This document shows positions 23,314-52,685 of a stretch of DNA of 64,000 nucleotides, piece after piece (positions within the stretch are counted from its first letter, which is position 1; every line of letters begins with the position of its first letter). The notes beneath the pieces were generated by a model, which worked only from the letters and a program-made list of their open reading frames with translations, was not told the origin of the DNA and searched no databases. This DNA is from Bacillus sp. NP157 (GTDB lineage: Bacteria > Pseudomonadota > Gammaproteobacteria > Xanthomonadales > Rhodanobacteraceae): NCBI GenBank assembly GCA_018889975.1, contig CP076546.1:3038001-3102000 (forward strand). Reading direction: 5' to 3'. Both the position numbers and the translations under genes were made by a program.

Positions 23314-25011
23314 TTAGGCCGGCCAGCGTGAAGGAACAATAGTCCGAATGGCTGGGGGCGCCTCGACCAGGGCATGCGTCGAGCCCACGCGCACGTGAAC
23401 GTCGGCGAGCGCGGCGACCGCCTCGCGGTGCGACACAACCACGATCATCGCCTCGGGCAGGCTCGCGCGCACGGCGGTGAGCACGGCCAGCTCCGACGCC
23501 GCATCCAGTGCGCTGGTCGCCTCGTCGAGCACAGCCAGCGCCGGCCGGCGCAGGATCACCTGGGCGAGCAACAGCCTTTGCAGTTCACCACCGGACAAGC
23601 GGCTGCCCGCGGCGTGCACGGGCAGGTCGAGCCCCTCCATGGACCCATCGATGCGCCGGTCCATGCCGACGACGCGCAGCACGGCATGCAGGGCCGCGTC
23701 GCCAGCGGCCGGATCGGCCCAGGCCAGCACCTCGCGCACCGTGCATTGCCACGGTCGCACGCCTTGCCCGACATACGCACCGCGGGCGACGAGCGCCTGC
23801 CATGCGGCGAAATCGAGCGGCACGCCGTCCCGGCGCGCGCGGAACACGTCGGGGGGCGCCATTCCCGCGAGCACGTCGACCAGGGTGGTCTTGCCGATGC
23901 CGGAGTCCCCACTGACCAGCACGAGCTCACCCGGGCGCAGCCACAACCCTTCCAGGGTCAACCCGTCGCGCGGGGGACGGACACGGAGCTGTTCGATCAG
24001 CACGTCGCCGCTGCGCGTGGTGGCGTCCGTGCCGATCGACGGGTTCGGCGCGGCCGGCAGGCCCATGTAGCGCTGCCACAGGGCCAGTGCCGGTTCGGCC
24101 GAGCGCAACTGCTGGAAACCCTGGCGGGTCGAGACCAGGTAAGGCAACAACCGCCCCAGCAACAGGCCGACCGCGACCAGCGCCGCGCCGTCCATGCTGC
24201 GCCAGCGATCGGCGAGCAGGAACAGCGCGGGGATACCCAGCGCGGCACCGACCTCGAGCACCAGCCGGCTCGACGCCACCAGTTCCAGCTGGCGGCGGTA
24301 ACCGTCGCCCAGCCGCTGCGAGACGTCGCCATAGCTCGCCTTCTCCGCGGCCTCGCGACCGAACGAACGCACGTGGCGCAGGCGCCGGGGAAAGTCCTCG
24401 CTATGCCAGAACAGGCCGGTCATGTCGGCGACGTAGCGCCGGCTCACCTCGGCCTGCTCGCGACCGGTGACGCGCGAGGTGAGCACGATGACCAGCAAGA
24501 GCACGGGGATCGCCAGCATCAGTGGCGGTGAAATCCAGAAGGCGAACAGCAGGCTCACCAGCGAGGTCAGCACGGCCACGGCCAACTGCTGCATCGCGCT
24601 GAAACCCTGGACCAGGATCTCGCCGTTGTAGGTGAGCACGTTGGCGATCTCGGCCGAGCTCGCATCGGCCAGGCCAGGCAAGGGCACCTCGAGCAGGTGG
24701 CCGTGCACCATGCCGCGCAGGCGCACGGCGAACCGGGCGACCTGGGCCGCACCCAGCCGTGCCGATTGCCAGCGCAACAGCGCGAACACGACGCCGGCCA
24801 CGGCGAACCCCGCCGCATTTACGCCGATGTTCGCGCTCGCCAGCGGCAACGCATGCCCAGGCTGCACCAGCGGCACCAACAACAACGCCGACACGCTGCC
24901 GCTCACCGCCGCGCCCACCGACAACAACGCATAGACCGCCAACGACACACGCTCGGCGCGCGGCAGCAACGCCAGTAGCCCACGCCACGCCGAGCCCGAC
25001 CCCACGCTCAC
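23314..25011 (-). CDS. ABC exporter, fused permease and ATPase
   Basis: 565 residues: a six-helix transmembrane domain (about 20-290) then an ABC ATPase with Walker A (SGDSGIGKTTL), signature (LSGGELQRLLLAQ), Walker B (LAVLDEATSAL) and H-loop (VVVSHRE). This half-transporter layout is typical of peptide, siderophore and lipid exporters and of the D protein of lasso-peptide loci. No N-terminal C39 peptidase is present. The start overlaps the HprK-like gene stop as ATGA, so the two are translationally coupled. Substrate: probably the product of the linked tailoring cluster (inference). Confidence 0.88.
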   Translation of the reverse strand: MSVGSGSAWRGLLALLPRAERVSLAVYALLSVGAAVSGSVSALLLVPLVQPGHALPLASANIGVNAAGFAVAGVVFALLRWQSARLGAAQVARFAVRLRGMVHGHLLEVPLPGLADASSAEIANVLTYNGEILVQGFSAMQQLAVAVLTSLVSLLFAFWISPPLMLAIPVLLLVIVLTSRVTGREQAEVSRRYVADMTGLFWHSEDFPRRLRHVRSFGREAAEKASYGDVSQRLGDGYRRQLELVASSRLVLEVGAALGIPALFLLADRWRSMDGAALVAVGLLLGRLLPYLVSTRQGFQQLRSAEPALALWQRYMGLPAAPNPSIGTDATTRSGDVLIEQLRVRPPRDGLTLEGLWLRPGELVLVSGDSGIGKTTLVDVLAGMAPPDVFRARRDGVPLDFAAWQALVARGAYVGQGVRPWQCTVREVLAWADPAAGDAALHAVLRVVGMDRRIDGSMEGLDLPVHAAGSRLSGGELQRLLLAQVILRRPALAVLDEATSALDAASELAVLTAVRASLPEAMIVVVSHREAVAALADVHVRVGSTHALVEAPPAIRTIVPSRWPA

Positions 25012-26135
25012 CCCGCCCCCACCCGTAGGAGCGCGCCCGCGCGCGACAGCTCCTCGCGACCACCCACCCCCTCACCATCATCCGCAGAACCATCCACACC
25101 AAAACCACCCACACCAACACCATCAAAAAACCGCCCCACCAACGCATCCAGCGAAGCCCGCGGATCCACCCCCCGCCGCAACACCCACACCCCACGCGAC
25201 ACCGCACAGTCGACAAACCGCCGCCACCCCAGTTGTCCGCTGGCATAAGGCTGATCCTCGCTGAGCCGGGCAATCGCCTGCTCCCGCGGCAACGCCTCGA
25301 GCAATTCACCCTCCGCTGCTTCGCTCGAAAGCAAGACCGTCGCCACGATCTCCAAAGGCGCCGATGCCGGCCTGAAACCCTCGCCACGCAGGTCGATCTC
25401 GAACTTCTCCACGCCACTGCGTCGCCGGATCCGCGGAGCGGCCCGTACCCGGCGACGCGCCGACGCATCCAGCCAGGCAAGGCTCCCGTCGGCCACGTGC
25501 AGGTAGTTCGGCACGCCCGTCGCGCGCAGGCGGATCGGATCGACGAACACGCCGTCTTCCGCCAGCACGTCGTATCCGTCGAGGGCCGCCTGCAAGGTCA
25601 AGGTGGATTTACCCGCGCCCGAAGGGCCTAACAGCAACACGCCGCGGCCTTCGCTGCCGATGCACGCGGCGTGCAACGGCACGAGGTCCTGGCCGCGCGC
25701 GGCGAGCAGGTAAACCGCGAACTCGATCATCTCGTAGCGCACGTAGTAGGCATCGGCCAGCCGGTCGGCCGACACCGCGACCACCGCGCGACGCTGGCCG
25801 GGGATCACCGTGATGAAATTCGTGTCGTCGACGATGCCGACCAGCACGCCGCCACCCGAGGTCATCTTCACCGTCGGCGGCGGACCGGGCGGCGGGTTGC
25901 TTCGCGCGGGCAACAGGCGCAGTTCGACATGGAACACCGGCGGCACGGGGCCCAGCCGATGCGCCGGTAGCTTGTCGTAGGCCTCGCCGGCCATCGCCAG
26001 CAACGCTTCGCTGTTGCTGGCGAAGACGAACGAGGCACCGAGTGCCGGCCAGCTGCGCGCATACGGCAGGCGCAGGCGTTCCCCGAAGGGATCGATGGCG
26101 AAGTCGCGGGTGGTGCTGTCGTCGGTCGTGGCCAT
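25008..26135 (-). CDS. HPr-kinase-like (HprK-related) kinase
   Basis: 375 residues. An N-terminal about 145-residue domain precedes an HprK/PEPCK-type kinase core with VPLHAA (H155), P-loop GPSGAGKS (170-177) and AEDGVFVD. It lacks the full HPr kinase architecture. Such HprK-like proteins occur in RiPP loci (one phosphorylates a lasso-peptide terminus in paeninodin clusters) and in exopolysaccharide loci. The last residues (SRAGALLRVGAG) are encoded by a REP-like repeat, so the C-terminus has been extended by that element. The start at 26135 (MATTDDSTTR) is the most natural; the frame upstream crosses the palindrome. Confidence 0.78.
   Translation of the reverse strand: MATTDDSTTRDFAIDPFGERLRLPYARSWPALGASFVFASNSEALLAMAGEAYDKLPAHRLGPVPPVFHVELRLLPARSNPPPGPPPTVKMTSGGGVLVGIVDDTNFITVIPGQRRAVVAVSADRLADAYYVRYEMIEFAVYLLAARGQDLVPLHAACIGSEGRGVLLLGPSGAGKSTLTLQAALDGYDVLAEDGVFVDPIRLRATGVPNYLHVADGSLAWLDASARRRVRAAPRIRRRSGVEKFEIDLRGEGFRPASAPLEIVATVLLSSEAAEGELLEALPREQAIARLSEDQPYASGQLGWRRFVDCAVSRGVWVLRRGVDPRASLDALVGRFFDGVGVGGFGVDGSADDGEGVGGREELSRAGALLRVGAG
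25025..25046 (+). repeat. REP-like palindrome, copy 4 (translated as the HprK C-terminus)
   Basis: GTAGGAGCGCGC then CCGCGCGCGA. On the coding strand of the HprK-like gene the unit is read through as SRAGALLR, just before the stop at 25008. This shows insertion into, or extension of, the 3' end of that gene. Confidence 0.85.
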
Positions 26136-26158
26136 CGTCGCGGTCGCCGGGGTGAACC

Positions 26159-26239
26159 GCCGTAGGTGCCTTCCCGGCCGGGGAAGGTTGTGCCGTGGCC
26201 CGGTCGCAACCTCCCCATGGCGGCACGGCACTTACCGGC
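26159..26239. repeat. Nested inverted repeat, site A, in the HprK / radical SAM divergent promoter region
   Basis: Outer arms are GCCGTAGGTGCC (26159-26170) and GGCACTTACCGGC (26227-26239). Inner arms are GGGGAAGGTTGTG (26180-26192) and CGCAACCTCCCC (26205-26216). It lies about 23 bases from the HprK-like ATG and about 43 bases from the radical SAM ATG. A near-copy with the same arm order is found at 50594-50683. Possible regulator-binding site or structured leader. Confidence 0.6.
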
Positions 26240-26282
26240 ATACCTGCCGCGGCCATGGCCGCTTCATCCGGGCCTTTGTCAC

Positions 26283-27719
26283 ATGCTGAATATCCAGGTC
26301 GGCCATGCCTACTTCCTGCGCTACGACCGCAAGCAGTGGGAACGTGGCAAGCCCTACCCGCCCCTGGCGACGATCCAGGTGGCTGCCCTGCTGCGCCGCA
26401 TGGGCCATGCGGTCAGCCTGTTCGACGCCATGCTGGCCGAAGGCGTCGAGGACTATGCGCCGGCGCTGGACGCCCATGCGCCCGAGCTGGTCGTTTTCTA
26501 TGAAGACAATTTTAACTACCTGACCAAGATGTGCCTCGGTCGCATGCGCGAAGCCGCCTGCCAGATGATCGGCGAAGCGAAGGCACGCGGTGCACGGGTG
26601 TTGGTCGCCGGTTCCGATGCGTCCGACCATCCCGAGGCTTTCCTCGCCGCCGGCGCCGATGCCGTGCTCACGGGCGAAGGCATCGCCGCCCTCGTCGACC
26701 TGGTCCGCCGGCTCGAACGCGATCCCGGCCAGGACAACGACGCCTGGACCGATGGCCTTGCCGGCATCGCGACGCGTGCGCCCGCCGCGAGCCGCAAGAT
26801 ACGCCTGGGCGTGGTGCCGCCGGATGCGCGCATCAGCGGCCTGCCCGCGTGGGACCTCGTCGACATGCCGCGCTATCGCACGCTGTGGATGGAGCGCCAC
26901 GGCTATTTCAGCCTGAACATGGCCGCCTCGCGCGGCTGCCCGTTCCGCTGCAACTGGTGTGCGAAACCGATCTGGGGCAACCACTACAACCAGCGGCCCG
27001 CGCAGGAAGTCGCCGCGGAGATGACCTACCTGAAGCAGGCGTTCGCACCCGACCATATCTGGATGGCCGACGACATCTTCGGTTTCCACGTCGACTGGGT
27101 CAGCGACTTCGCCGCGGCGTTGCAGGCCAGCGACGGCTCCATTCCCTTCATGATCCAGACCCGCGCCGACCTTTCCAGCGAACGCATGGCGACCGCGCTC
27201 GCCGCCGCGGGATGCGTGGAAGCATGGATCGGCGCGGAAAGCGGCAGTCAGCGCGTGCTCGACCGGATGACCAAGGGCACCCGCGTGCCCGACCTCATCG
27301 CGGCACGCCATCGCCTCGGCGCGCATGGGATCCGTGTCGGCTTCTTCATCCAGCTGGGCTACCTGGGCGAGGAACTCGACGACCTGCTCGCCACGCGCGC
27401 ACTCGTTCGCGACGCCACGCCGGACGACATCGGCGTGAGCGTGTCGTATCCGCTGCCGGGCACGAAGTTCTTCGAGGAAGTGCGTGCGCAGCTGGGTCGC
27501 AAGACCCACTGGGAACAGAGCGACGACCTGGCGATGATGTTCCGCGGGGCCTACGACACGGCCTTCTATCGCGAGGTGCGCGACCTGTTGCATCGCGAGG
27601 TGACCGCGCCCGGCGCCGCGCTCGACGCCAGCTGGGCCGACCTGCTCTCGCGCGAAGCCGAACACCGCCACGCAGAACCCACGGTAGCGGGCTGGGCAAT
27701 GCAGGCATCGGGAACTTGA
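26283..27719 (+). CDS. B12-binding-type radical SAM enzyme (tailoring candidate)
   Basis: 478 residues. The N-terminal about 150 residues have the Rossmann-like B12-binding domain pattern (YPPLATIQVAALLRRMGHAV, then VLVAGSDASDHPEAFLAAG, VLTGEG), though no DxHxxG motif is seen. The radical SAM core has the [4Fe-4S] site C219-x3-C223-x2-C226 (RGCPFRCNWC) and later GAESGSQRVLDRMTKG. Relatives (BchE/hopanoid-like class) carry out methylations, cyclisations or other C-H chemistry. The ATG at 26283 follows the palindrome; the frame from 26166 is non-coding upstream. It is coupled to the nucleotidyltransferase gene (2-base gap). Substrate unknown. Confidence 0.85.
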   Translation: MLNIQVGHAYFLRYDRKQWERGKPYPPLATIQVAALLRRMGHAVSLFDAMLAEGVEDYAPALDAHAPELVVFYEDNFNYLTKMCLGRMREAACQMIGEAKARGARVLVAGSDASDHPEAFLAAGADAVLTGEGIAALVDLVRRLERDPGQDNDAWTDGLAGIATRAPAASRKIRLGVVPPDARISGLPAWDLVDMPRYRTLWMERHGYFSLNMAASRGCPFRCNWCAKPIWGNHYNQRPAQEVAAEMTYLKQAFAPDHIWMADDIFGFHVDWVSDFAAALQASDGSIPFMIQTRADLSSERMATALAAAGCVEAWIGAESGSQRVLDRMTKGTRVPDLIAARHRLGAHGIRVGFFIQLGYLGEELDDLLATRALVRDATPDDIGVSVSYPLPGTKFFEEVRAQLGRKTHWEQSDDLAMMFRGAYDTAFYREVRDLLHREVTAPGAALDASWADLLSREAEHRHAEPTVAGWAMQASGT

Positions 27720-27721
27720 GC

Positions 27722-28930
27722 ATGCTGCCGCCGCTGCCGACGCTGAAGCACGGGCTTTCGCGCACTACCGAAGCCCTGGCCGCCGAACTGGCACTGGCCC
27801 GCGCTGGCTCGCCCGAGCCGGACTGGACCGCGCTGGAATGGCGCCTGGCCAGCGCCGCCGCCGTCGCGCATGGCGTCTCGCCGCTGCTCGCGGGATTCTC
27901 CACATGGGCGCAGCCGGGCTGGCAGGCCTTCCTCGCCGCGCAGCGCGAGCATGTCGAGATCCGCCAGCAACGCATCGCCTCGCTGGTCGCGCGCATCGAC
28001 GCGCGTGCCCGGCGGATGGGCTTGCCGCTGCTCGCACTGAAGGGCGTGGCGCTGCATGGACTCGGCATCTACGTCGCCGGCGAACGGCCCATGGCCGACA
28101 TCGACCTGTTGATCCGCCCGCGCGATGCGGGCGTGGTCGACGCCTTGCTGGCCGAGCTCGGTTACCAGGAATCGTTCCGGCAGTGGAAACACCGGGTGTT
28201 CAAGCCCGTCGACGGCGTGGCCGTACGCGGCCTCGGCGAACACCGCGACGCGCCGGTCAATATCGAGGTGCACACCCGCATCCACGAACGGCTGCCGATC
28301 CACACCGTCGACATCACCGACACGGTTTGGCCCGACGACGCCGCGCCAGGCATCAATCCGTATCCCTCTCGCGGCGCCCTGATGGCGCACCTGCTGCTGC
28401 ACGCCGCGGGCAATATCTGCGGCCGCAGCCTGCGCCTGCTCCACCTGCACGACATCGCCCAGCTCGCCCGGCGCATGCGCCGCGACGAATGGGACGTGCT
28501 GTGGGCCTCGGGCGAGCGACCGTGGTGGGCCTGGCCGCCACTACGCGTCGCCGCGATGTATTTCCCCGGTACGATTCCACGCATGGTGCTCGACCGCCTG
28601 CGTCGCACCTGCCCGCCACTGCTGCGGCTCGCCGCGCGCCGGCAGACCCTCACCAGCGTCTCCTGCTCCGCACTGTGGCTCAACCTCCTCCCCGGCGCCG
28701 AGTGGTCGCGCACCCCCGCCGACATCACCCGCCTGCTTATCAACCGCGTGCGGCCGACCCAGGAAAGCCGCGACGAACGCGCCGACATGCTGCGCACCCA
28801 GGTATGGCTGCAAGGCCAGGACTGGGTCCGCCGCGGCCACGTCACCCGCCTCATCACCGGCCTCACCCGCCCCGTCCCCCGCATGGACACCCTCTACGTC
28901 ATCCGCGCCGCCTTGGCCGAACACGCCTAG
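27722..28930 (+). CDS. Nucleotidyltransferase-family protein (PF14907-like)
   Basis: 402 residues. The core contains LLALKGVALHGLGIYVAGERPMADIDLLIRP (quoted for its position at about 100-130; the DID pair is the metal site), then NIEVHTRIHERLP and a helical tail with a double-histidine segment (LLHLHDIAQLARRM). This is the pattern of the uncharacterised NTP_transf_5 family, which recurs in lasso-peptide and exopolysaccharide loci together with HprK-like kinases and ABC exporters. It follows the radical SAM gene by two bases, so it is in the same operon. The reaction is unknown; nucleotidyl transfer to a peptide or sugar is the inference. Confidence 0.8.
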   Translation: MLPPLPTLKHGLSRTTEALAAELALARAGSPEPDWTALEWRLASAAAVAHGVSPLLAGFSTWAQPGWQAFLAAQREHVEIRQQRIASLVARIDARARRMGLPLLALKGVALHGLGIYVAGERPMADIDLLIRPRDAGVVDALLAELGYQESFRQWKHRVFKPVDGVAVRGLGEHRDAPVNIEVHTRIHERLPIHTVDITDTVWPDDAAPGINPYPSRGALMAHLLLHAAGNICGRSLRLLHLHDIAQLARRMRRDEWDVLWASGERPWWAWPPLRVAAMYFPGTIPRMVLDRLRRTCPPLLRLAARRQTLTSVSCSALWLNLLPGAEWSRTPADITRLLINRVRPTQESRDERADMLRTQVWLQGQDWVRRGHVTRLITGLTRPVPRMDTLYVIRAALAEHA

Positions 28931-29269: not shown

Positions 29270-32200
29270 GTGCCAAGGAACCGCTTTTGCCGAACGGCTG
29301 TCGCCACCCTTTCAGCTATCGCCTCGTCGCAGGCGCTCGCCGTCGATGTCGACGCCTCCTTCGAGTACCAGATTCTTCAGAACGGCCAGCCGGCACGCTA
29401 CCTGAGCGATGTGAATCAAGCCGCCACGGAGATTGTCTCCATTGCGTGCGAGAAGTATCAATTCACAGGCTGCGAGCTGACGGGCGTCAGCTTTTTCAAT
29501 TCCCTTTACACCGCCGCCTATAACTACATAGACCAGAATGGCGCTCATTACCGCTCTACCGTGTGGGGCTACCGCTACTACGCGTGCGACGTATCCCCGA
29601 CCCTGTACTTTGTCGAGAAGGACGGCCGGGAATCGGGGCCGTATGCCAATCGCACCCGCACTCCGCCCCCACTAGGCGGCAGGCCGGTGTGCCGACTGAC
29701 CCTTGACCCGGGCTCTGACGTGGAAAAGCAGTCGGAGCTTGGACGCGGCGACTGTCGAACCCGGCCCAACGCTGGCAATCCAATCAATGTAGGACTAGGC
29801 AACAAGTACCAAGAGGTTGTCGATATCTTGCCCACGAGCGCATCACCGCTTCAGTGGTCGCGCTTTTACAACAGCGGAATCGTGCGGGATGGCGCGAAAG
29901 CAGCGAACGACGGAACACTGGTCGAACCGACGCTGTCGCGGCTTGGCAACCGTTGGCGGGGTACCTATGACAGGTCGATCGTGCAGGTCGACGGAGCCAG
30001 GCACGTTCGCTTGATGCGGCACACGGGCGAGCGAATCGACTTCGTCGAGGAGGATGGTCATTACCGGAGCACGGTCGATCCTAGAGGCATGCTCGTTCGC
30101 GACGGAAGCTCCTGGCAGTACCACGACGGAAACGTCGATATCGAGCGCTACGATGCCGAAGGTCGTCTGACAGATCTGAACCCTGGCACGTCACAGCATG
30201 TTCGCTTCCGGTATTCCGAGGAATTGATGGAGGCGACCGACCTGCAAGGACGATCGCTTGCGTTCAGCTATGACGAGCTCGGTCGTATCGCTAGCATCCG
30301 CGATCGATCAGGCGTGTCTGTCAGCTACACCTATGCCGAAGATTCCGAAAGGTCGGCCGACCTCCTATCGGCCACCTATCCGGACGGCACCTCACATCAA
30401 TACAAGTACAACGAGCGATCCTACGCTGCCATCGATTTGCCTCACGCCCTCACAGGCATCGTTGACGAAACCGGAAAACGGTTCGCCAGCTTCTACTATG
30501 ACGAGACTGGCCGAGCCATTCGCAGCGAACACGCGAATGGGGTGGCAAGGACGTCGCTCAACCGAGAGGCCGATGGCACGGTAAACGTCACTGGCCCAAT
30601 GGGCGCCGTCAACACGTTTCGATATGCTGATGTCAAGGGCGTTCGACGTCTCGTGGGCGTCGACCAGCCAGAAGGATCTGGCTGCGGTGCTGCGTTCTCC
30701 AAGCTTGACTATCACGCCGACGGCACGCTGAGGAGCACCGTCGACTTCGACGGCCAGGTTACCGATTACACCCACGACAGTAACGGACACGAGGTCAGTC
30801 GTACCGAGGCCTCTGGCACTCCCATAGCACGTTCAATCCGCACAGAGTGGAGTGCTGACCTATCGCTCCCGACAAAGATCACCCTGCCCGGCCGGGAGGA
30901 ACGCCTCACCTACGATGACGCCGGCAACCTCACCCGGCGTGAGCTGTGGGCCGCCATCGATCCGGCGGTAAAAGATGCCCCGCTGTCGCTTTCGCGGTCG
31001 TGGAAATTCACGTATGACGTCGATGGACGCCTCCTCATGGAAGAAGGACCGCGCAGCGATACCACGACGCCCGGCCTTCTCCAGCGCTACACCTACCATG
31101 CCTCGGCGGCTGCAAACTGCGGCAGCGGTTCGGCCTGCGACTATCGGAAGGGTGATCTATGGACGGTCGAAAACGCCCTCGGTCACAAGCATGAAATCCT
31201 TCGATTCGACGCATCCGGTCGCGTCCTCACCGAGCGGCTAGCATCAGGCACCCAGGTCGAAAGCCAGTACACCCCGCGCGGCTGGCTTCTGTCGCGCACG
31301 GAAACACACACCGACGGCACCGTTGCCACGACCTCGTTGACCTACAACGAACGTGGCGACGTGACGTCGATCACGGATGCCGATGGCGTCAAGCTCACCT
31401 TCGAATACGATGCCGCCGGCCGCCTCATCATGGTGGCTAACCCGTCCAACCATCGCCTGATGTTTGAACTGGACAAGGCTGGCAACCGCATTCGTGAAAC
31501 GGGCTATGACTCGTTCTTCCTGAAGACCCAGCTCACCCGCACGTTCGACGCCCTCGGCCGCATGGAGACTGAGCAGGGCGAGGGTATCGGACGCTTCACC
31601 TTTACCTACGACGAAGTGGGCCGTCCGACGGGCGTGGTCGACGGCGATGGTCGTCGCAGCAGCACCTCATACGATGCGCTCGGTCGCCTGCGAGAGGCTG
31701 TCGGCGACCTCGGCGGAAAAGAGGCTAGCGTCAATGCCACTCATGACCCTCTGGATCAGGTGACATCGATCGTTGATCCCGACGCCGTCACCACCCGATA
31801 CCTCACCACGGGGCTGGGCGACCTTGCCAGCGTCGAAAGCCCGGATGGGGGCGAAGCCTACGATGAGCACGACGCTGCCGGCTTGGTGAGCAAACACGAA
31901 GGCGCGGGTGGCGTTGGCAGCTTCACCCTGACTCGTGACGCCCTCGGCCGCCCGCTGAAGATGGCGTATCTCGACCCTTCGACTGATGCGACCTACACGT
32001 ACGACATGCCCGATAGCGCTTGCCCTGGCGACAAACGCAACGCCATCGGCCATCTGTCGGCAATGTCCACCGCCAGGGGTTCGACGTTGCTGTGCTACGA
32101 CGCAGCCGGGAACGTGACACGGCGAATCCAGCGCTGGGGTACGACGCTCAAGATAGCGAACTACGCCTACACCAAGGCCGGGCGCCTCGCTTCCATGGGC

Positions 32201-33769
32201 GTGGACGGTGGCGCGATGGTGTTGTATCGCTATGACATCGACGGCAAGGTCAATGGCGTGAAGGTCGAACAGGCTGGCGTATCCACCGACCTCATTACAA
32301 AAGTCGCCTACCGCCCCTTCGACAATATCGAGAGCTGGACGTACGGCAACGGTTACACGTTCTTGAACAGCCGTGACAAGGCCGGACGCGTCACGGCCTG
32401 GGGTGGTCTGGACCCCAACGGATCAAACTATTGGCTCGACCCGTCTCCTGGCGGCGACATCCGGGCGGACGTCACCCGAGGGGCCGCCTACGCCTTCAAT
32501 CACAACGGACTGGGCTATCTGGATGAAGTGAGGGACTACAACACCGGGTCTAACCTGCTGTCGTTCGACTACAACGCCAGCGGCGACCGCCTGGCTCTCA
32601 GGAACGGCGGTGTCACGGACACATACGTTTATCAGCCAGGCACCCATCGACTGACCATGGCCGAGGGCAAGGCCCGTCGCTACGACGACGCGGGCAACCT
32701 CATCGCACTCGGCGATGCCACCCTGACCTACGATGGCGCGGCGCGCCTGGCCTCCGCCAGCGAACAGGGCCGGACCGTTGTGAGCTACGGCTACGATGGC
32801 GAGGGTAACCGCATCGCCCGTACCGTCGCATCGGCCGGGAAGACGACCCTGACCCTGTTCGATGAGGAGGGACGCTGGCTTGCCGACTATGACGAGCTCG
32901 GAAGGGTCTCCAAGCAAGCGGTTTGGATGGACGAGCTGCTCGTTGGCCTCGTCGTCGACGGCAAGCTGTACTACGTGGGACCCGATCACCTCGGCTCCCC
33001 TCGCGAGATCCTCGACCCCGTTCGAAACACGATTGTGTGGCGGTGGTGGCACAACCGCGATCCGTTCGGGTCGACGCATCCTGAAGAAGACCCGGACGGC
33101 GATGGGGCAATGTTTACCTTCGATCTTCGTTTCCCCGGCCAGCGCTATGACAATGTGACGGGCCTGCATGCCAATGGAGCCCGGGACTACGATCCGTCGG
33201 TAGGCCGCTACATCCAGGTTGATCCGATTGGTCTGTCCGGCGGACTGAATCCGTATGTGTACGTCACCAATAGGCCGCTGACTGCTATCGACCCATTGGG
33301 CTTAGTGAAGTGGGATGGATACGTCGAAACGTTTTCCATCTCCCCCCTTCTCGCCGCAGGCGCTTACAAGTTTGGTCTGATATCGGAGTGTATCGATGGA
33401 CGACGTGCTGCCGTCATGGTTAATGCGGCGGGACTTGGGATCGGACTAGGATTCAAGATCTCACCAACGGTATCCGGTGCCGGCTCTACCGTCAGCTTCG
33501 AAGACCGCATGAGCCACATCGATCCGAACATTCTCAACGGGTGGTTTGTAGCCTACAGTGCTGGCGCGGCCGTACATCGTGGGTATGGTCTATCAACGTT
33601 CCAGCTCGGCGGAGTCGGACGTCAGCTCGCCAAACCTGAAAAGTCTGGCGCTTTCGCAAAACCGTCCTTCGGTCCCGAGAGAGGCTTCGAGCTTGGCGCG
33701 GGAGTCATAGCCGGCCGCAGCAGTGTCGACAAAGTCGAATGGACGCAGTGCGGTTGCGCAGCCAGATGA
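29270..33769 (+). CDS. Secreted RHS-repeat protein, candidate polymorphic toxin
   Basis: 1499 residues from a GTG with GGAG six bases upstream. A signal peptide (NRFCRTAVATLSAIASSQALA) precedes a short N-domain, a DUF6531-like motif (NPINVGLGNKYQEV, RFYNSG) and a long array of YD/RHS repeats (YDEAGRL-like). The RHS core ends in the canonical hyper-conserved stretch RYIQVDPIGLSGGLNPYVYV and DPLGL at residue 1341. The variable C-terminal domain is 154 residues, glycine-rich (AAGLGIGLGFKISP) with no toxin motif recognised. Base use is more A/T-rich than its neighbours. Candidate immunity genes follow directly. Export by Sec, rather than type VI effector loading, is suggested by the signal peptide. 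Confidence 0.88.
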   Translation: MPRNRFCRTAVATLSAIASSQALAVDVDASFEYQILQNGQPARYLSDVNQAATEIVSIACEKYQFTGCELTGVSFFNSLYTAAYNYIDQNGAHYRSTVWGYRYYACDVSPTLYFVEKDGRESGPYANRTRTPPPLGGRPVCRLTLDPGSDVEKQSELGRGDCRTRPNAGNPINVGLGNKYQEVVDILPTSASPLQWSRFYNSGIVRDGAKAANDGTLVEPTLSRLGNRWRGTYDRSIVQVDGARHVRLMRHTGERIDFVEEDGHYRSTVDPRGMLVRDGSSWQYHDGNVDIERYDAEGRLTDLNPGTSQHVRFRYSEELMEATDLQGRSLAFSYDELGRIASIRDRSGVSVSYTYAEDSERSADLLSATYPDGTSHQYKYNERSYAAIDLPHALTGIVDETGKRFASFYYDETGRAIRSEHANGVARTSLNREADGTVNVTGPMGAVNTFRYADVKGVRRLVGVDQPEGSGCGAAFSKLDYHADGTLRSTVDFDGQVTDYTHDSNGHEVSRTEASGTPIARSIRTEWSADLSLPTKITLPGREERLTYDDAGNLTRRELWAAIDPAVKDAPLSLSRSWKFTYDVDGRLLMEEGPRSDTTTPGLLQRYTYHASAAANCGSGSACDYRKGDLWTVENALGHKHEILRFDASGRVLTERLASGTQVESQYTPRGWLLSRTETHTDGTVATTSLTYNERGDVTSITDADGVKLTFEYDAAGRLIMVANPSNHRLMFELDKAGNRIRETGYDSFFLKTQLTRTFDALGRMETEQGEGIGRFTFTYDEVGRPTGVVDGDGRRSSTSYDALGRLREAVGDLGGKEASVNATHDPLDQVTSIVDPDAVTTRYLTTGLGDLASVESPDGGEAYDEHDAAGLVSKHEGAGGVGSFTLTRDALGRPLKMAYLDPSTDATYTYDMPDSACPGDKRNAIGHLSAMSTARGSTLLCYDAAGNVTRRIQRWGTTLKIANYAYTKAGRLASMGVDGGAMVLYRYDIDGKVNGVKVEQAGVSTDLITKVAYRPFDNIESWTYGNGYTFLNSRDKAGRVTAWGGLDPNGSNYWLDPSPGGDIRADVTRGAAYAFNHNGLGYLDEVRDYNTGSNLLSFDYNASGDRLALRNGGVTDTYVYQPGTHRLTMAEGKARRYDDAGNLIALGDATLTYDGAARLASASEQGRTVVSYGYDGEGNRIARTVASAGKTTLTLFDEEGRWLADYDELGRVSKQAVWMDELLVGLVVDGKLYYVGPDHLGSPREILDPVRNTIVWRWWHNRDPFGSTHPEEDPDGDGAMFTFDLRFPGQRYDNVTGLHANGARDYDPSVGRYIQVDPIGLSGGLNPYVYVTNRPLTAIDPLGLVKWDGYVETFSISPLLAAGAYKFGLISECIDGRRAAVMVNAAGLGIGLGFKISPTVSGAGSTVSFEDRMSHIDPNILNGWFVAYSAGAAVHRGYGLSTFQLGGVGRQLAKPEKSGAFAKPSFGPERGFELGAGVIAGRSSVDKVEWTQCGCAAR

Positions 33770-35823: not shown

Positions 35824-35845
35824 TCGCGCGCAGGCGCGCTCCTAC
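35824..35845 (-). repeat. REP-like palindrome, copy 6
   Basis: The inverted unit ends GCTCCTAC; its TAG (read on the minus strand at 35844-35842) is the stop codon of the terminal glycosyltransferase gene of the polysaccharide operon. Confidence 0.85.
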
Positions 35846-36948
35846 AGGGGGTGGTGGGTTAACGCTTCGTAGTGGCTGAGGAACGCGGTGGCGGTGGCGT
35901 CGGCGTCTTCGCGCATGGCGCGGCGTTGTGCTTCGGTGGCGAGGCGGAGGCGTAGCGCTTCGTCATGCGCGACCGTGGCGATGGCCAGGGCGAGGCCTTC
36001 GGCATCACCTGGGGCTGCCGTCAGGGCGGCAGTGCCTTCCCACTCCACGAAATGGCCTACGGCCGTGCCGACCGAAGGCACGCCGAGGACGGCGGCTTCG
36101 AGCAACACCAGCGGCCCTGCCTCGTGCCGCGAGGACATGACGAGCAGGTCGGCATCCAGCAGCAGCGGGCGCAACGCTGCTTGCGTGCGAAAGCCGAGGA
36201 ACGCCACCCGGTCGGCGATGCCGAGTTCGCGCGCGAGGTCGTGCACGCGGCCGCCCAGCGTATCGACGCCGATCATCTGCATGGTGAACGGCACGCCCCG
36301 CTGGGCGAGGATCGCCAGTGCATGCAGCAGGGTTGCCTGGTCCTTGACCAGGTTGAGGCTGGCGACGTGGAGCAGGCGCAGCGGTGCAGCGGCGCGCGGC
36401 CGCGGTGTCGCAAGCGGCCAACGCGAGACGTCCACGCCAAGGGGAATCCGCCCGGCGCTGACGCCAAGGCCACGCAACGAGGCAAGGATCGGTTCGCTCG
36501 CCGCCGTCACCAACGCAGCGCGCCGCAGCACCACCGATTCACTGATCCGGCTACGCAAACGCCGCCGCCCGCCGTAGCCGATGTCGTCGAGCGCCACCAG
36601 CTCGCCACCCGCGATATGCACCGCGTAAGGCACGCGAAGCAGCACGGACGACATCGCGGCCACCTGCCCGCAAGCGCCGGAGAACAGGGCCTGCAGCACG
36701 TCGAAACGCGCGAGCCGGTGCTCGCGGCGTATCGCCATCACCGAGCGCCACCGCGTCCATCCCTCACCGATGTTATGGACCTGCGCACCACGGAGCTCCC
36801 ACCGCGCGGGCCGCGGCTCCTGGTGGAACACGAACACATGCACCTCGTGCAGCCGCGCGAGCCGTTCGACCAGCGCAAGGAACGCCGGTATCACCCGCTC
36901 CTCGCCGCCACGGTCGACGCCGCCGGGAAGCACGATGCCTATCTTCAT
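35842..36948 (-). CDS. Glycosyltransferase family 4 protein (last gene of the polysaccharide operon)
   Basis: 368 residues of GT-B fold. The N-domain opens MKIGIVLPGGVDRGGEERV; the C-domain has LLHVASLNLVKDQATLLHAL and the GT4 nucleotide-sugar signature region SSRHEAGPLVLLEAAVLGVPSVG with its ExxxxxxxE glutamates. It adds a sugar to a lipid-linked repeat unit at the cytoplasmic face. The ATG at 36948 overlaps the upstream glycosyltransferase stop as ATGA; the frame extending to 38352 is a shadow. Stop codon supplied by a REP unit. Sugar specificity unknown. Confidence 0.9.
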   Translation of the reverse strand: MKIGIVLPGGVDRGGEERVIPAFLALVERLARLHEVHVFVFHQEPRPARWELRGAQVHNIGEGWTRWRSVMAIRREHRLARFDVLQALFSGACGQVAAMSSVLLRVPYAVHIAGGELVALDDIGYGGRRRLRSRISESVVLRRAALVTAASEPILASLRGLGVSAGRIPLGVDVSRWPLATPRPRAAAPLRLLHVASLNLVKDQATLLHALAILAQRGVPFTMQMIGVDTLGGRVHDLARELGIADRVAFLGFRTQAALRPLLLDADLLVMSSRHEAGPLVLLEAAVLGVPSVGTAVGHFVEWEGTAALTAAPGDAEGLALAIATVAHDEALRLRLATEAQRRAMREDADATATAFLSHYEALTHHPL

Positions 36949-38069
36949 GCGCGCAGCCGTCGCGCATCGACCAGCGATGCATACGCCGAGGCCCAACGCC
37001 GACCGAGCGCCAGGAACGAGAGGTGGGCGCGGAAGTGCTCGCTGACCAGTTGCCGCGGCACCAGCTGGGTCGCCGCGCCTATCAAGGCCTGTCCGCAACG
37101 CACCGCGTCCCCGGGCGGAAACAGCTTCCCGACCGACCCGTTGCCGGTGAGTTCGCGGAACGACGGGATGTCGCTTACCACCGGTGTCGCGCCACACGCC
37201 ATCGCTTCGAGCAGGGCGAAACCGCAGCTCTCCGCGTGGCTGCCACTGATGTAGATGTCGGCGGCGCGCATCAGTGTTTCCACTTCCGCGTGGGCCAGCC
37301 GCCCGAGCAAGGTCACCCGGCTGGCGAGGCGCTCGTCGCCTTCGATCCGCGCACGCACGGCATCGCCCAGCGGCGCATTCCCATACGCCATGTACAGGCG
37401 AGCGCCGGGCGACACCGCGGCCAGGCGCGCGAAACCATCGAGCACCGTCAGCGGATCCTTGTTTTCGTTCAGATGCCCGACCCAGGCGATGGCGGGTGCA
37501 CCAACGACCTTCGCCATCACCCGCGCGGCGTCGCGACTCCCCGGCGTAAAGCGGCTGCTCGATTCGGGAATGGCGAATACGCGCGTGCCCGGCGGCAACA
37601 GTCCGCCCGCGCGAAAACGCAGGGCCAGCGGCGCGGCGGTAAACGCGACGGCATCCACGCTGCGCAGCCAGCGCCGCCAGGCCGGACGCCGCCACCACGC
37701 GGGAACACGATCGGCATGGTCCTGCAGGAGGATCGGCAACAACGGCAGCTCCTGCGCGATCGCATGGGCCTCCTCCGCGCACGCCATGCTGTGGATATGC
37801 AGCACGTCGGGGACCTGCCCGCGCAACAGATGGGCGACATGGCGGCCCCGCGCGCGCGGCGATGCATACGCACGCAGGTCGACGAAGCGGTAGTCGATGC
37901 CCTGGCGAACGAAACGGGCATCGTGGTCGGCCGCCTGCAACACGGAGACCCACACCCCACCCGCCGCGACCGCCTCGGGGATATCCGCCAGCGACGGCCA
38001 GTGCTCGAACAGGGCCTCCGCTGGCATGCCTGCGGGTGCCGGATGCAGGTTGAGCTGGACGACGCGCAT
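36945..38069 (-). CDS. Glycosyltransferase family 4 protein
   Basis: 374 residues, GT-B fold. The start is MRVVQLNLHPAPAGMPAE. The donor-binding half has WVGHLNENKDPLTVLDGFARL and SGSHAESCGFALLEAMACGATPV with the EX7E-type glutamates (quoted around their positions). It likely adds one residue of the repeat unit on undecaprenyl diphosphate. It lies 12 bases after the radical SAM gene and is coupled to the next glycosyltransferase. Acceptor and donor unknown. Confidence 0.9.
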   Translation of the reverse strand: MRVVQLNLHPAPAGMPAEALFEHWPSLADIPEAVAAGGVWVSVLQAADHDARFVRQGIDYRFVDLRAYASPRARGRHVAHLLRGQVPDVLHIHSMACAEEAHAIAQELPLLPILLQDHADRVPAWWRRPAWRRWLRSVDAVAFTAAPLALRFRAGGLLPPGTRVFAIPESSSRFTPGSRDAARVMAKVVGAPAIAWVGHLNENKDPLTVLDGFARLAAVSPGARLYMAYGNAPLGDAVRARIEGDERLASRVTLLGRLAHAEVETLMRAADIYISGSHAESCGFALLEAMACGATPVVSDIPSFRELTGNGSVGKLFPPGDAVRCGQALIGAATQLVPRQLVSEHFRAHLSFLALGRRWASAYASLVDARRLRA

Positions 38070-38081
38070 GGGCGGCGGCGC

Positions 38082-39587
38082 CTAGATGCCGGACACCTGG
38101 GGCAGCCGCAGCTTCACCAGTCGGTTGGCCAGGTTCAGCTCCCACGGCTTGTCGTACTGGCGGCGCTGGTAGCGCCACGACGCCATCGCGCTGAGGCCGC
38201 GCTTCGCCCACGAGGGCGAACGCAGGTCCTGCACCGTGGGGAACCGGCACCGCAGCACGGTGACGAAATCCTGGATGCGCCGGCGCAGGTCGTCGGTCAG
38301 CCACGGCGCATCCGCGTGGCATGCGTAGTCGACCCAGCGCTTCTCGGTCCATTCCTCGGGCGAGGCCGGGAACACCATCGGTTCGCCGTGCAGGTCGAGC
38401 AGGGGCATCGACGCGCGCTTGCCGCGATCCTTCTCATGCTTGCTGCTCTCCGGCAGCGGCGTGTAGACGTAGACGATGATCTCCGAGGCCGGGTTGATCC
38501 GCTTCAGCTCGCGGATGAACTCGAAGGTGTGCTCGGTCTCTTCCTCGGTGTTTTCCGGGGGCGCGACCATGAAGGACAGTTCGGGGATCACCCCGTGGCG
38601 CCGGCACAACTCGGCCACTTCCAGCGTCTGGTCGGGCCGCGTGCCCTTGCGGATCTCCTTCAGCATCGCGCCGCTGGGTGACTCGGCGCCGATATAGGCC
38701 ATCCGCAGCCGGCTCTTGCGGACCAGCTTCCAGCTGCTCTCCGAAAGCTTCAGCAAGGCGTCGCTGCGGGCGTAGCACCACCAGGGCAGCTCGTGCTTCG
38801 CCATCACTTCCAGCAAGGGGATCATGTCCTCTTCGCGATCGAAGAAGTTGTGGTCGAAGTACTGGATGGAGTCCGCGCCCAGCTGGTGCTTGAGGTAGGA
38901 CAGGTCGCGGTCGAGTCGCGCGGCGGCGGGCAACTGGGTCATCCCGCCGAACATCGCCGCCACCCCGCAGAAGGTGCAACGGAAGCGGCAGCCGATCGCG
39001 GCCTGGTGCGCGGCGGTGCGCTGGCCAAGGAAGGTACGCGCGAGGTAACGACGCGGATCGCCGAGCTTCTCGTACGGCAGGACGATGCCCGGGTCACCGA
39101 GGGCGAAATGCCGGTTGGGATTGTGCACGGCGTGGCCGTTCGCGTCGCGCCAGGACAGCCCGGCGATCCGCGAGACATCGCGATCGGGGCGCTCGAGTGC
39201 CGCGATCAGGTCGGGCAGCGTCTCCTCGCCCTGCCCGCGCACGGCGTAGTCGACGTACGGCGCGGCCAGCGTGGTATCGGTGTAAAGCGTGGGGAAATAG
39301 CCGCCCCAGATGATCGGCAGCGAAGGATGGTGCTCGCGGATCGCCTTCGACACGGCGATCGATGGCGCCATCTGCGGGCCACCCATGACGCTGATGCCGA
39401 CCGCGTCGACCGGCTTCGTGGCGATCGCCCGCAGCGTGGCGTCGACGATGTCGCGATCCATGTTGCCGTCGACGATCGTGCTCTCGCCGCGCCGGTCCAG
39501 CGCCGCGGACAGGTTGAGCAGCGCAAGCGGAAAGCGTGCGCTTTGTCGCGAGGTGATCGTCGGGTTGACCAGCAAGGTGTGCGACAT
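38082..39587 (-). CDS. B12-binding-type radical SAM enzyme in the polysaccharide operon
   Basis: 501 residues. A B12-binding Rossmann domain (about 1-130: PLALLNLSAALDRRGE, GISVMGGPQMAPS, IIWGGYFPTLYTD, VRGQGEETL) precedes a radical SAM core with cluster ligands C200, C204 and C207 (GCRFRCTFC) and a late GAESPSGAMLKEIRKG. It belongs to the same broad class as the enzyme at 26283 but is not a close copy. Radical SAM enzymes are unusual in O-antigen/capsule operons; C-methylation or another C-H modification of a sugar or lipid is possible. It neighbours a methyltransferase gene. Confidence 0.85.
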   Translation of the reverse strand: MSHTLLVNPTITSRQSARFPLALLNLSAALDRRGESTIVDGNMDRDIVDATLRAIATKPVDAVGISVMGGPQMAPSIAVSKAIREHHPSLPIIWGGYFPTLYTDTTLAAPYVDYAVRGQGEETLPDLIAALERPDRDVSRIAGLSWRDANGHAVHNPNRHFALGDPGIVLPYEKLGDPRRYLARTFLGQRTAAHQAAIGCRFRCTFCGVAAMFGGMTQLPAAARLDRDLSYLKHQLGADSIQYFDHNFFDREEDMIPLLEVMAKHELPWWCYARSDALLKLSESSWKLVRKSRLRMAYIGAESPSGAMLKEIRKGTRPDQTLEVAELCRRHGVIPELSFMVAPPENTEEETEHTFEFIRELKRINPASEIIVYVYTPLPESSKHEKDRGKRASMPLLDLHGEPMVFPASPEEWTEKRWVDYACHADAPWLTDDLRRRIQDFVTVLRCRFPTVQDLRSPSWAKRGLSAMASWRYQRRQYDKPWELNLANRLVKLRLPQVSGI

Positions 39588-39611: not shown

Positions 39612-40313
39612 TCAGGTAGCGTGGCGGGTGAGGCGAAACACCAGCGCCACGGGAACATCGAGGGCAACGCGGTCGAAACGCGCGCCCGACGGGATGTCGG
39701 CGGGATCAAGCATCGGCTCGGCGACGTGGTCGATGCGCAGCCCGGCCGCGGCACAGGCGTCGTGCCACGCGCTGTAGTGATGGATGGCGTGGCGCACGGC
39801 GTAGCGCTCGTCGCCCACGCGGAAATCGCGTTGCCAGCCGAGTGCCGCGCCGATCGGATGGAAGTCGCTGACCAGTACCGTGGCGCCTGGCCGGGCGATC
39901 CGGGCCAGCTCGCGCAGCACGGCGGCAAGGTCGGGGACGTGGCCCACGGCGAGGCCGCAGAGCACGACGTCGGCGCTGGCATCCGGCACGGGCAACGTGC
40001 GCAGGTCGCCCTGGGCGAGCGCGATCCGCGCGCTTGCCGGGGTGTCGGCGAAGACGCCGGCGGCGCGGGCCAGCATCGGTGCCGACAGGTCCACGCCGAC
40101 TAGCGTCGTGGCGCCGCGCGCCAGGGCATGACGCAGGTAGCGGCCACTGCCGCAGCCCGCGTCGACCACGCTGCGTCCGGCGAGCGAGGCGGGAAGCTGG
40201 CCGAGCATCGCCCGCTCCTCCGCGTGCATCAGCGGGTTGTGCGCGTGCGCGGGATACGAGGCAGCCCACAAGGCATACGCCGGTGCGGGATCGAGCACGG
40301 GTGCGCCGCCCAT
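39612..40313 (-). CDS. Class I SAM-dependent methyltransferase
   Basis: 233 residues. Motif I is VVDAGCGSGRYL, followed by VGVDLSAPMLARA (motif II acid), QGDLRTLPVPDASADVVLCG and LRELARIARPGATVLVSDF (all UbiE/Methyltransf_11 features). It probably methylates a small molecule or glycan. The ATG at 40313 is 2 bases past the amidohydrolase stop. Substrate unknown; linkage to the radical SAM enzyme and amidohydrolase suggests one modification branch. Confidence 0.85.
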   Translation of the reverse strand: MGGAPVLDPAPAYALWAASYPAHAHNPLMHAEERAMLGQLPASLAGRSVVDAGCGSGRYLRHALARGATTLVGVDLSAPMLARAAGVFADTPASARIALAQGDLRTLPVPDASADVVLCGLAVGHVPDLAAVLRELARIARPGATVLVSDFHPIGAALGWQRDFRVGDERYAVRHAIHHYSAWHDACAAAGLRIDHVAEPMLDPADIPSGARFDRVALDVPVALVFRLTRHAT

Positions 40314-40314
40314 G

Positions 40315-41490
40315 TCAGTGCACCCGCTCGAAGCCGGGCTCGAGCGCCATCAGCGCATCGTCGGCGAGACGCGCATCGACCAGCTTCGGCCGACCGTCGA
40401 GCATGACCGCCACGGCGTCGACGCCCGCCGCTTCGAACCAGTCGGCGAAGTCCGGATCGGCCACGCACGGCATCCCGCCGCGCACCACCGCGCGCAGGTC
40501 GGCACGGCGCAGCCCGTCGAGGGCGCTCGTGGGTTCGCCACCGCGATCGGTCACGACGATGAAGTCGGCTTGCGCACCGACGGCCAGTGCGCCGTGTCCA
40601 TGCAGCCGAAGGATGCGTGCCGCGTCGCACGTCGCCAGGCCTAGCAGGGTTGCCGCCGGCAGCACATCGCGCACCGCATGCATCTCGTCGAGCAGGTCCC
40701 GTGCGCCGGAAAGCCGCGAATCGCTGCCGAGTGCAAGGCACCCCGCCGCGGCCAGTCGCCGTGGATCGAGCGTGACGCCGAGCAGGCTGCGGTTACTCAC
40801 CGGACACCAGACCACGGCGGCGCCACGCGCCACCACGCGATCCATGTCCGCGCCGCTGAGGCCGACGCCATGCACCAGCACGCTGTTCGAGGCGAGGCAA
40901 CCGAGGTTGTCGAGGGATTGCAGCTCACCACGGGCCACCTCGTCGCTGCCTTCGGCCAGGTGGATCAGCCACGGGCGATCCGCTGGCGTCGCCGAGAAAC
41001 TCTCGCGCACCGGCGGACCAAAGGCGGGGCCGGCCAGGGCGTAGCTCCAGCCATGCCCGCGCAGCAGGCCGATGGGGAAGTCGGCGGCGTCCAGCGCGGC
41101 GTGCCAGGGATCGTGGTGCGCCACGACGGTCGTGCCGGCGAGCAGGTTCTTCAACGCACCATGACGCAGGCGCAGCGCCTTGGGCAAGGCGATGGCGGCT
41201 TTCACGGCAGGCTCGTCGAAGTGCGCCTGGAAGGCGTCGATCCACGCGTAGCTGTTCGGAAAGGGCGCGCCCTCGCGCAATGGCGGCACGCAGTTCACCT
41301 GGAGGTGTTCGTGTGCATTGACCAGCCCGGGGAGCACGAAGTGGTCGCGCAGGTCGACATCGAACGCACGTTCCGCCACCCCTGCCGAAAAGCGCGTGCC
41401 GGCCACGCCGGGAAGCACGGGCGCATCGCCCGCGGCCGTCACGGCGCGGGCGCCACGCAGACGCACGGCATGGGCGGCGCGGGCGTTCAA
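40315..41490 (-). CDS. Amidohydrolase-family protein (cytosine deaminase/chlorohydrolase-like)
   Basis: 391 residues with the metal-dependent hydrolase layout: a beta sandwich, then LPGLVNAHEHLQVN (HxH metal pair), a second histidine in VVAHHDPWH, IHLAEG, a further histidine in VLVHGVGL, and the catalytic Asp in LALGSDSRLSG. All expected metal ligands look present, so it is probably active. It removes an amine, halide or acyl group, or opens a ring; the substrate is unknown. Such enzymes are not standard in polysaccharide operons. Its start overlaps the upstream methyltransferase stop (41487-41490). Confidence 0.82.
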   Translation of the reverse strand: MNARAAHAVRLRGARAVTAAGDAPVLPGVAGTRFSAGVAERAFDVDLRDHFVLPGLVNAHEHLQVNCVPPLREGAPFPNSYAWIDAFQAHFDEPAVKAAIALPKALRLRHGALKNLLAGTTVVAHHDPWHAALDAADFPIGLLRGHGWSYALAGPAFGPPVRESFSATPADRPWLIHLAEGSDEVARGELQSLDNLGCLASNSVLVHGVGLSGADMDRVVARGAAVVWCPVSNRSLLGVTLDPRRLAAAGCLALGSDSRLSGARDLLDEMHAVRDVLPAATLLGLATCDAARILRLHGHGALAVGAQADFIVVTDRGGEPTSALDGLRRADLRAVVRGGMPCVADPDFADWFEAAGVDAVAVMLDGRPKLVDARLADDALMALEPGFERVH

Positions 41491-43182: not shown

Positions 43183-43195
43183 CGTCGTTGCGCCA

Positions 43196-49459: not shown

Positions 49460-49468
49460 GCGTCCTCC

Positions 49469-50556: not shown

Positions 50557-50593
50557 GGCGTGTCCCGGCTTCTGGTGGCTTCCGCGGTCGTCT

Positions 50594-50683
50594 GCCATGA
50601 GTGCGGGCGGCGCCGGGAAAGGTTGCGCACGCCACGGACCGGCACGCGCCGCAACCTTCCGCGAAGGCGCTGGCACTCATGGC
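50594..50683. repeat. Nested inverted repeat, site B, upstream of fdtA and cytochrome b561
   Basis: Perfect outer arms GCCATGAGTGC (50594-50604) and GCACTCATGGC (50673-50683). Inner arms GGGAAAGGTTGCG (50615-50627) and CGCAACCTTCC (50650-50660). It starts 38 bases before the fdtA ATG and ends 44 bases before the cytochrome b561 ATG. The arm order and sequence match site A at 26159-26239. Confidence 0.65.
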
Positions 50684-50726
50684 CATGCGTCGCCCGACTG
50701 GCGGGCGCCCTGGGGAACGACCTGCG

Positions 50727-51281: not shown

Positions 51282-51318
51282 CCGCCCCCGGCCACGCCAT
51301 CACAAGGAGTTCGAGACG

Positions 51319-52668: not shown

Positions 52669-52685
52669 GCACAGGAATACGACGC

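Follow-up and report, generated by a model that had tools for sequence, protein, structure and literature searches.

The four genes at positions 23,314 to 28,930 of the window (the whole 64,000-nucleotide stretch analyzed here, from the 4.88-Mb, single-contig genome of Bacillus sp. NP157) form one arm of a larger locus and are no free-standing cluster. They encode an ATP-binding cassette (ABC) exporter, an HprK-like kinase, a B12-type radical S-adenosylmethionine (SAM) enzyme (rSAM1) and a PF14907 nucleotidyltransferase-fold enzyme (NTase); the reading we favor, with moderate confidence, is that they constitute the left arm of a conserved Wzx/Wzy-type surface-polysaccharide locus, provide a phosphate-based decoration of its glycan, and belong with the rest of the locus to a single regulon linked to an extracytoplasmic function (ECF) sigma factor. 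They probably decorate a sugar polymer rather than make a peptide. The preliminary description of this set had weighed two alternatives, a new ribosomally synthesized and post-translationally modified peptide (RiPP) with a distant precursor and a modification of the linked polysaccharide; the latter is favored because the set has the same genome profile as the rest of the locus, keeps its synteny, is missing from an empty site and shares a promoter-like motif with the glycan genes, while the former gained no support, a PqqD-type domain near the locus, a conserved locus-specific small open reading frame (ORF) and a strict leader of the linear polyphosphorylated peptide (LPP) kind not having been found.

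On the minus strand, the exporter (23,314..25,011), an MsbA/CydD-like fusion of permease and ATPase, and the kinase (25,008..26,135), whose genes overlap in a GTGA, diverge from rSAM1 (26,283..27,719) and the NTase (27,722..28,930) on the plus strand, which are spaced by 2 bp; coordinates and Pfam matches agree with the identities and strands first proposed. The exporter, present in all 21 loci described below, scores 62.5 bits to ABC_tran and also matches ABC_membrane, with NCBIfam scores of 141.7 bits to CydD and 134.7 bits to MsbA that lie far under both cut-offs. rSAM1 carries a CxxxCxxC motif and scores 52.7 bits to Radical_SAM, its B12-binding domain reaching 28.0 bits in Pfam, below the cut-off of 32.1; the NTase scores 99.1 bits to NTP_transf_5 (cut-off 31.2). 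The gaps at 26,136-26,282 and 28,931-29,269 are indeed devoid of a precursor gene: the first contains two divergent promoter-like motifs, and the second a repeat resembling repetitive extragenic palindromic (REP) elements and the edge of an Rhs gene. What did not hold were the outer limits; the genes stand, but the unit extends to about 50.7 kb, or to 56.5 kb if the sigma-factor operon is counted.

Among 61 genomes searched for orthologs, including the source of the window, the kinase is found at E 3.3e-78 or better in 21, namely 18 of 23 from the same genus (own included) and 3 of 14 from other genera of the family; rSAM1 and a second B12-type radical SAM enzyme (rSAM2) each occur in the identical set (E 1e-60). 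Four further kinase matches are weak (E 2.5e-4 to 7e-4), and one of them is a second match in a genome that has the locus. The co-conservation anticipated for the four genes is thus borne out, with their divergent order kept in 21 of 21 loci (in G006 the contig end truncates the exporter). As scored on joined stretches of 17-60 kb, each of these loci also contains two glycosyltransferases (GTa and GTb), rSAM2, two SAM methyltransferases (MTa and MTb), an amidohydrolase, Wzz, a Wzy-like protein, Wzx, DegT and FdtA; gene order is constant, and the four genes stand at the head of this Wzx/Wzy-type polysaccharide locus every time. A shared glycan locus, one of two companions suggested beforehand, therefore accompanies the set throughout, whereas the other, a conserved locus-specific small ORF, did not emerge. 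Where no Rhs gene intervenes, the NTase is separated from the following glycosyltransferase gene by -70 to +92 bp in 17 of 18 loci, the remaining one (G027) having 2145 bp. Some loci carry insertions: in the window, G010 and G013 an Rhs gene separates the NTase from GTa; G022 and G003 have 1.0-1.8 kb inserted between MTb and Wzz, G008 has 6 kb upstream of the ECF gene, and G027 has 2.1 kb downstream of the NTase. Five genomes of the same genus contain neither the kinase nor rSAM1 nor rSAM2 anywhere; in three of these (G011, G012, G018) the site is empty, the flanking small ORF adjoining dusB with aligned ends 93-147 bp apart, compared with a distance of 34.5 kb in the window.

The locus is common to many soil and plant-associated Xanthomonadales. 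When named genomes were scanned, 125 relatives came up, and the best 80 of them (at least 11 of which are also among the 21 loci, so that the sets overlap) comprise Luteibacter, Dyella, Rhodanobacter, Frateuria, Pinirhizobacter, 26 Xanthomonas records, one Roseateles, and several metagenome-assembled genomes. All four genes are found in 73 of the 80, the exporter at only 31-33% identity in L168 and L192; three of the seven misses (L132, L149, L194) lie at contig ends or on a short contig. MTa and GTb without a match to rSAM2 are seen in 21 of the 26 Xanthomonas loci (three have rSAM2, two are uninformative), which suggests that loci with the four-gene arm can do without rSAM2. The kinase, rSAM1 and MTb are retained in five distant loci (L186, L192, L194, L196, L199), four of which have the NTase and three GTa; the exporter is unmatched in three, of which L194 is only 5.8 kb long, and remotely matched in two, and kinase and rSAM1 do not form a divergent pair. 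The older core may thus consist of kinase, rSAM1, NTase and MTb, perhaps with GTa. A phylum-wide profile search with the kinase hit 2 of 398 genomes at E 1e-15; with five candidates scored per genome, it gives a sample of the spread outside Xanthomonadales. The locus also occurs in a metagenome-assembled genome titled Candidatus Eremiobacteraeota (L127), with an rSAM2 85% identical to that of the window; this is possibly a misassigned bin. No description of the locus was found in the open-access literature, subscription papers and preprints being outside the scope of that search.

In the 21-locus alignment, the gap between kinase and rSAM1, 96-356 bp in length, holds two divergent copies of a promoter-like motif, roughly CAACC-N16-GCACTCA. 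A first pattern, GCAACCN{14,19}GGCAC, gave three matches in the window, one inside a coding region, against 0.56 expected; a relaxed form placed sites upstream of MTb, FdtA, cytochrome b561 and the ECF gene in many loci; and the tightened pattern CAACCN{16,17}GCACYYA has nine matches in the genome, six of them in the locus (the reversed pattern has three), while window shuffles average 0.09 matches and none of 100 reaches six. When 38 sites from the kinase-rSAM1 gaps of the 20 other loci were used to train a matrix, with the window and all other sites left out, it ranked the same six window sites first in the 64 kb, at 20.6-28.1 bits, the next site scoring 14.9. They lie at 26,163..26,190 (minus) towards kinase and exporter, with the relaxed form present in 19 of 21 loci; at 26,207..26,234 (plus) towards rSAM1 and NTase (21 of 21); at 42,356..42,383 (minus) towards the operon MTb-amidohydrolase-MTa-rSAM2-GTb-GTa (15 of 21); at 50,598..50,625 (minus) towards the genes from FdtA to Wzz (20 of 21); at 50,652..50,679 (plus) towards the cytochrome b561 operon (17 of the 18 loci with the gene); and at 53,918..53,945 (plus) at the ECF gene (11 of 20). 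The shared motif before its units that characterizes an ECF regulon is thus recovered by the matrix, and because a motif trained on the gap picks out both divergent arms, two glycan operons, the cytochrome operon and the ECF sigma gene, arm and glycan genes appear to form a single regulon of the ECF type. Among the named relatives, kinase and rSAM1 are divergent for 72 of 79 kinase genes analyzed; the rSAM1-ward motif is present in 71 (strict) or all 72 (relaxed) of these pairs, and the kinase-ward motif in 30 (strict) or 52 (relaxed), compared with 12 of 1381 control stretches (relaxed). Over 37 genomes, the tightened pattern occurs 5-18 times where the locus is present and 1-4 times in the five congeners that lack it. 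Two alike copies off the locus, seen among the matches listed at G007:C1:1940879 and G009:C1:3658919 (L113 and L114), may mark a further member of the regulon.

The glycan genes, assigned by Pfam and NCBIfam and all on the minus strand, bear out the Wzx/Wzy character of the locus. GTa, of GT4 type (35,842..36,930), GTb (36,945..38,069), rSAM2 (38,082..39,587, 10 kb from rSAM1), MTa (39,612..40,313), the amidohydrolase (40,315..41,490; PF01979, 56.3 bits) and MTb (41,487..42,338) are followed by a Wzz-type chain-length regulator (42,283..43,245; PF02706, 33.2 bits over a cut-off of 25.5), a putative Wzy polymerase (43,196..44,608), a family 2 glycosyltransferase (44,323..45,246; PF00535, 84.9 bits), which is the third in the locus, a WzxE-like flippase (45,243..46,541; NF011679, 285.6 bits, cut-off 325) and a DegT-type sugar aminotransferase (46,496..47,623; PF01041, 381.2 bits). 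The FdtA-type sugar isomerase (50,119..50,676) matches PF05523 with 152 bits over residues 43-169 only, and its annotated start is probably too early. In between lies an optional module of a FemAB-like acyltransferase, an unknown protein and a NeuD-type acetyltransferase (47,611..50,278, minus); as each of these is found in 10 of the 21 loci, the module suggests two forms of an amino-sugar substituent. The ECF sigma factor (53,937..54,554, plus; Sigma70_r2 and r4_2 in Pfam, sigma70-ECF in NCBIfam with 64 bits over a cut-off of 42.9) and a putative anti-sigma factor (54,443..55,192, plus), weakly matched by zf-HC2 (18.6 bits, cut-off 22.2) and NF052375 (35.6 bits, cut-off 100), are present in 20 of 21 loci, the contig of G006 ending before them; adjoining the pair is a subtilase-family protease (55,189..56,484, plus; PF00082, 121.8 bits), also in 20 of 21.

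The kinase belongs to a family of its own with a PEPCK/HprK fold and a Walker A motif. It scores 19.3-20.4 bits to Hpr_kinase_C (PF07475), below the cut-off of 33.3, and 35.3 bits to HprK-related kinase A (TIGR04352 of NCBIfam), far from the cut-off of 200, whereas a separate gene of the phosphotransferase system (PTS) type in the same genome reaches 203.8 bits to PF07475; these profile scores speak against grouping the locus kinase with the PTS kinases. H155, K176, E193 and D194 are invariant in the family, as are the putative catalytic residues of both kinase and NTase. The window kinase has 375 residues as compared with 337-366 in 20 relatives, owing to about 30 extra C-terminal residues that overlie the REP-like repeat at 25,025; residues 343-375 have a predicted local distance difference test (pLDDT) score below 50. 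For the NTase, a sequence search of the PDB gave no match at E 1; in fold comparison ANT(2'')-Ia ranks first, an enzyme that nucleotidylates a sugar hydroxyl. C219, C223 and C226 of rSAM1 are invariant in 21 of 21 loci, and its profile matches in the PDB are led by 9ccb (66.4 bits), followed by AprD4 (6fd2, 55.9 bits), an enzyme of the apramycin pathway.

In the proposed scheme, the ECF factor of the locus, held by the putative anti-sigma factor, would turn on all units together. The HprK-fold kinase would phosphorylate a hydroxyl of the glycan or of one of its building blocks, and the NTase-fold enzyme would act at the phosphate so made or at a neighboring sugar hydroxyl; rSAM1, the methyltransferases and the amidohydrolase would rebuild the sugar or its substituent, and the MsbA-like exporter would move the lipid-linked product or part of it, with no need for a peptide precursor. 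By parallel with the lasso peptide pseudomycoidin, kinase and NTase could build a phosphate-linked side group on the glycan.

Several points weigh against this scheme. The order of its steps and its substrate are guesses, and related enzymes, from the same superfamilies, have peptide substrates in the lasso and LPP pathways (PMC9266682, PMC13381572). The Wzy assignment is weak (18.9 bits to TIGR04370, cut-off 40), and the locus proteins that were scanned include neither Wza nor Wzc, which leaves an O-antigen and a free polysaccharide indistinguishable. The left flank differs from that of the window in six loci (G015, G004, G017, G032, G034, G027); insertion at one site is thus not general. As for the motif, 9 of 20 loci gave no site at the ECF gene, and 6 of 21 gave none at MTb; an early pattern drawn from the gap only has seven matches in the genome, just two of them in the locus; and the tightened pattern was shaped on the sites it was tested on, which is why the independent matrix test was run. 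That pattern further occurs 0-8 times in other genomes of the family that lack the locus (8 in G024), and its reversed control 0-9 times, exceeding the pattern itself in G004 (9 against 7); counts of the pattern alone are therefore not diagnostic. An AAC-containing -35 half is a trait of ECF promoters, and it is only from a -35-like half of this kind and from co-location that we infer the tie between motif and ECF factor.

The rival closest to the favored explanation retains the polysaccharide and shifts the chemistry upstream: kinase and NTase would prepare an activated small donor, to be modified by rSAM1, MTa/MTb and the amidohydrolase and then transferred to the polymer. The methyl phosphoramidate pathway of Campylobacter, in which a kinase and a cytidylyltransferase do so, offers a precedent, but we know of no cytidylyltransferase role for PF14907 proteins, and the match to ANT(2'')-Ia equally suggests action on an acceptor hydroxyl; we regard this route as unlikely, although by sequence it is inseparable from the favored explanation. 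Also unlikely, in our estimate somewhat more so, is a RiPP of the LPP kind with an unrecognized or distant precursor, in which the kinase would phosphorylate a serine, the NTase add to it, rSAM1 modify the peptide, and the ABC protein export it. LPPs are linear polyphosphorylated peptides of Bacillota capsule loci, and their combination of HprK-like kinase, NTP transferase and MsbA-like exporter is matched here at superfamily level only. Pseudomycoidin lends further weight: its kinase phosphorylates a serine and the NTase homologue PsmN is needed for the appearance of hexoses on the phosphoserine, whether PsmN itself or a host enzyme adds them being left open by the review (PMC9266682). On the other side, the PqqD-type domain (PF05402), a RiPP recognition element (RRE), was not found in the genome of the window, and only 2 of the 21 genomes with the locus have one, placed 0.7 Mb away or on a different contig (three matches among 26 genomes). 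The strict LPP leader YxxPxVLxHQ has no match in six frames of the 21 locus regions. When small ORFs (20-150 residues, at most 30% overlap with genes, BLASTP 1e-4) were clustered, no conserved locus-specific ORF appeared; by coordinates, all clusters in at least five genomes were either other frames of the glycosyltransferase gene at 44,323-45,246 or ORFs of the left flank. Seven off-locus motif sites in six relatives (L113-L119), picked by hand among the matches listed, shared no small ORF by eye, and three of the five distant loci, one of them the 5.8-kb contig, have no match to the ABC exporter. An archaeal-type signal peptidase was not seen among the locus proteins scanned, with no search aimed at it, nor were the B and C enzymes of lasso biosynthesis, for which the genome was not searched.

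Far less probable is a regulatory role, in which the kinase would switch the polysaccharide machinery by protein phosphorylation in the manner of the PTS. An effect of the PTS HprK on polysaccharide production is recorded for Xanthomonas campestris (PMC6916182), but here a separate PTS-type gene exists, scoring 203.8 bits to PF07475 against 20.4 for the locus kinase, whose own gene overlaps that of the exporter and has its promoter-like motif in common with the biosynthesis genes. The notion that the four genes are unrelated passengers draws on their position as divergent units at one edge of the locus; set against the identical profile in 21 genomes, an order kept across four genera and in Xanthomonas, and the shared promoter-like motif, it is close to refuted.

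The remaining features accompany the locus to varying degrees. A plus-strand operon of cytochrome b561, a beta-barrel-like protein with heme motifs, cytochrome c and a TorF-like porin (50,601..53,909; 18 of 21 loci match the first three and 20 match the porin) has both a promoter-like motif and synteny in common with the glycan locus. The Rhs-repeat protein (29,276..33,769, plus) is an insertion and is not counted as part of the system: besides the window, G010 and G013 have it at this point, making 3 of 21 loci, and it has a 35% match elsewhere in the locus of G001, between MTb and Wzz, and is unmatched in 17 of 21. Within the stretch 29,276-34,872, it is followed by two alike small ORFs (33,739-33,957 and 34,147-34,872), which are a possible duplicated immunity gene. 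The REP-like palindrome GTAGGAGCGCGCNNGCGCGCGA occurs in nine copies in the window (25,025, 28,957, 35,824 and six more) and in none of 100 shuffles; one of these is within the end of the kinase gene, and another two border the Rhs stretch. Directly downstream of the exporter, a small ORF at 23,076-23,279 (minus) encodes 67 residues (66-67 in relatives); its start looks like a signal peptide, and its end, with two cysteines, resembles DPCGxxRPxxGICRMLRPVRG. The ORF was found in 16 of the 61 genomes, each of them from the genus of the window, and adjoins the locus in 11 of 21 cases, with a weak match at the opposite border, beside dusB, in G014. As a precursor it was rejected, since 3 of its 16 carriers have no locus and the ORF is missing from 8 of the 21 genomes that do; it belongs to the flank and is independent of the locus.

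Set beside known systems, the locus resembles Wzx/Wzy-dependent O-antigen and exopolysaccharide loci in its Wzz, Wzx and Wzy-like proteins, its three glycosyltransferases, DegT/FdtA and, in 10 of 21 cases, NeuD. O-antigen loci usually vary in gene content, whereas that of the present locus is nearly constant across species; it further departs from them in its HprK-like kinase, PF14907 NTase, extra ABC exporter, B12 radical SAM enzymes and linked ECF operon. With PTS HPr kinase/phosphorylase, the kinase has in common the HprK/PEPCK fold and Walker A motif, but not the profile score. Paeninodin and pseudomycoidin lasso clusters likewise combine an HprK-like kinase, a nucleotidyltransferase homologue and an exporter, but no macrolactam synthetase or leader-peptidase family is found among the locus proteins scanned here, and the His-Lys-Asp-Asp motif given for lasso kinases in the review (PMC9266682) may differ from the invariant H155, K176, E193 and D194 of this family. 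The LPP clusters of Bacillota come close in another respect, their HprK-like kinase, NTP transferase and MsbA-like exporter being placed inside a polysaccharide locus (PMC13381572); the resemblance thus covers the polysaccharide setting and, at superfamily level, three of the four kinds of enzyme, but the present locus has radical SAM enzymes, and neither an RRE nearby nor a strict leader motif nor a precursor was found. These comparisons permit the tentative and somewhat doubtful proposal that the trio of HprK-like kinase, PF14907-type NTase and MsbA-like exporter acts here as a peptide-free machine for phosphorylating glycans and building phosphodiesters. We know of no role for an HprK-like kinase and a PF14907 NTase outside peptide pathways. 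If true, the proposal would add a third, peptide-free branch to a trio known from lasso and LPP pathways, and could account for the presence of the peptide versions within capsule loci; the regulon would then make a phosphoglycan, modified by B12 radical SAM enzymes, that is common to many Xanthomonadales. In any case, a conserved, ECF-linked surface-glycan locus is defined for many soil and plant-associated bacteria, and its gene list and promoter motif make an action of HprK-like kinases and PF14907 NTases on sugars testable.

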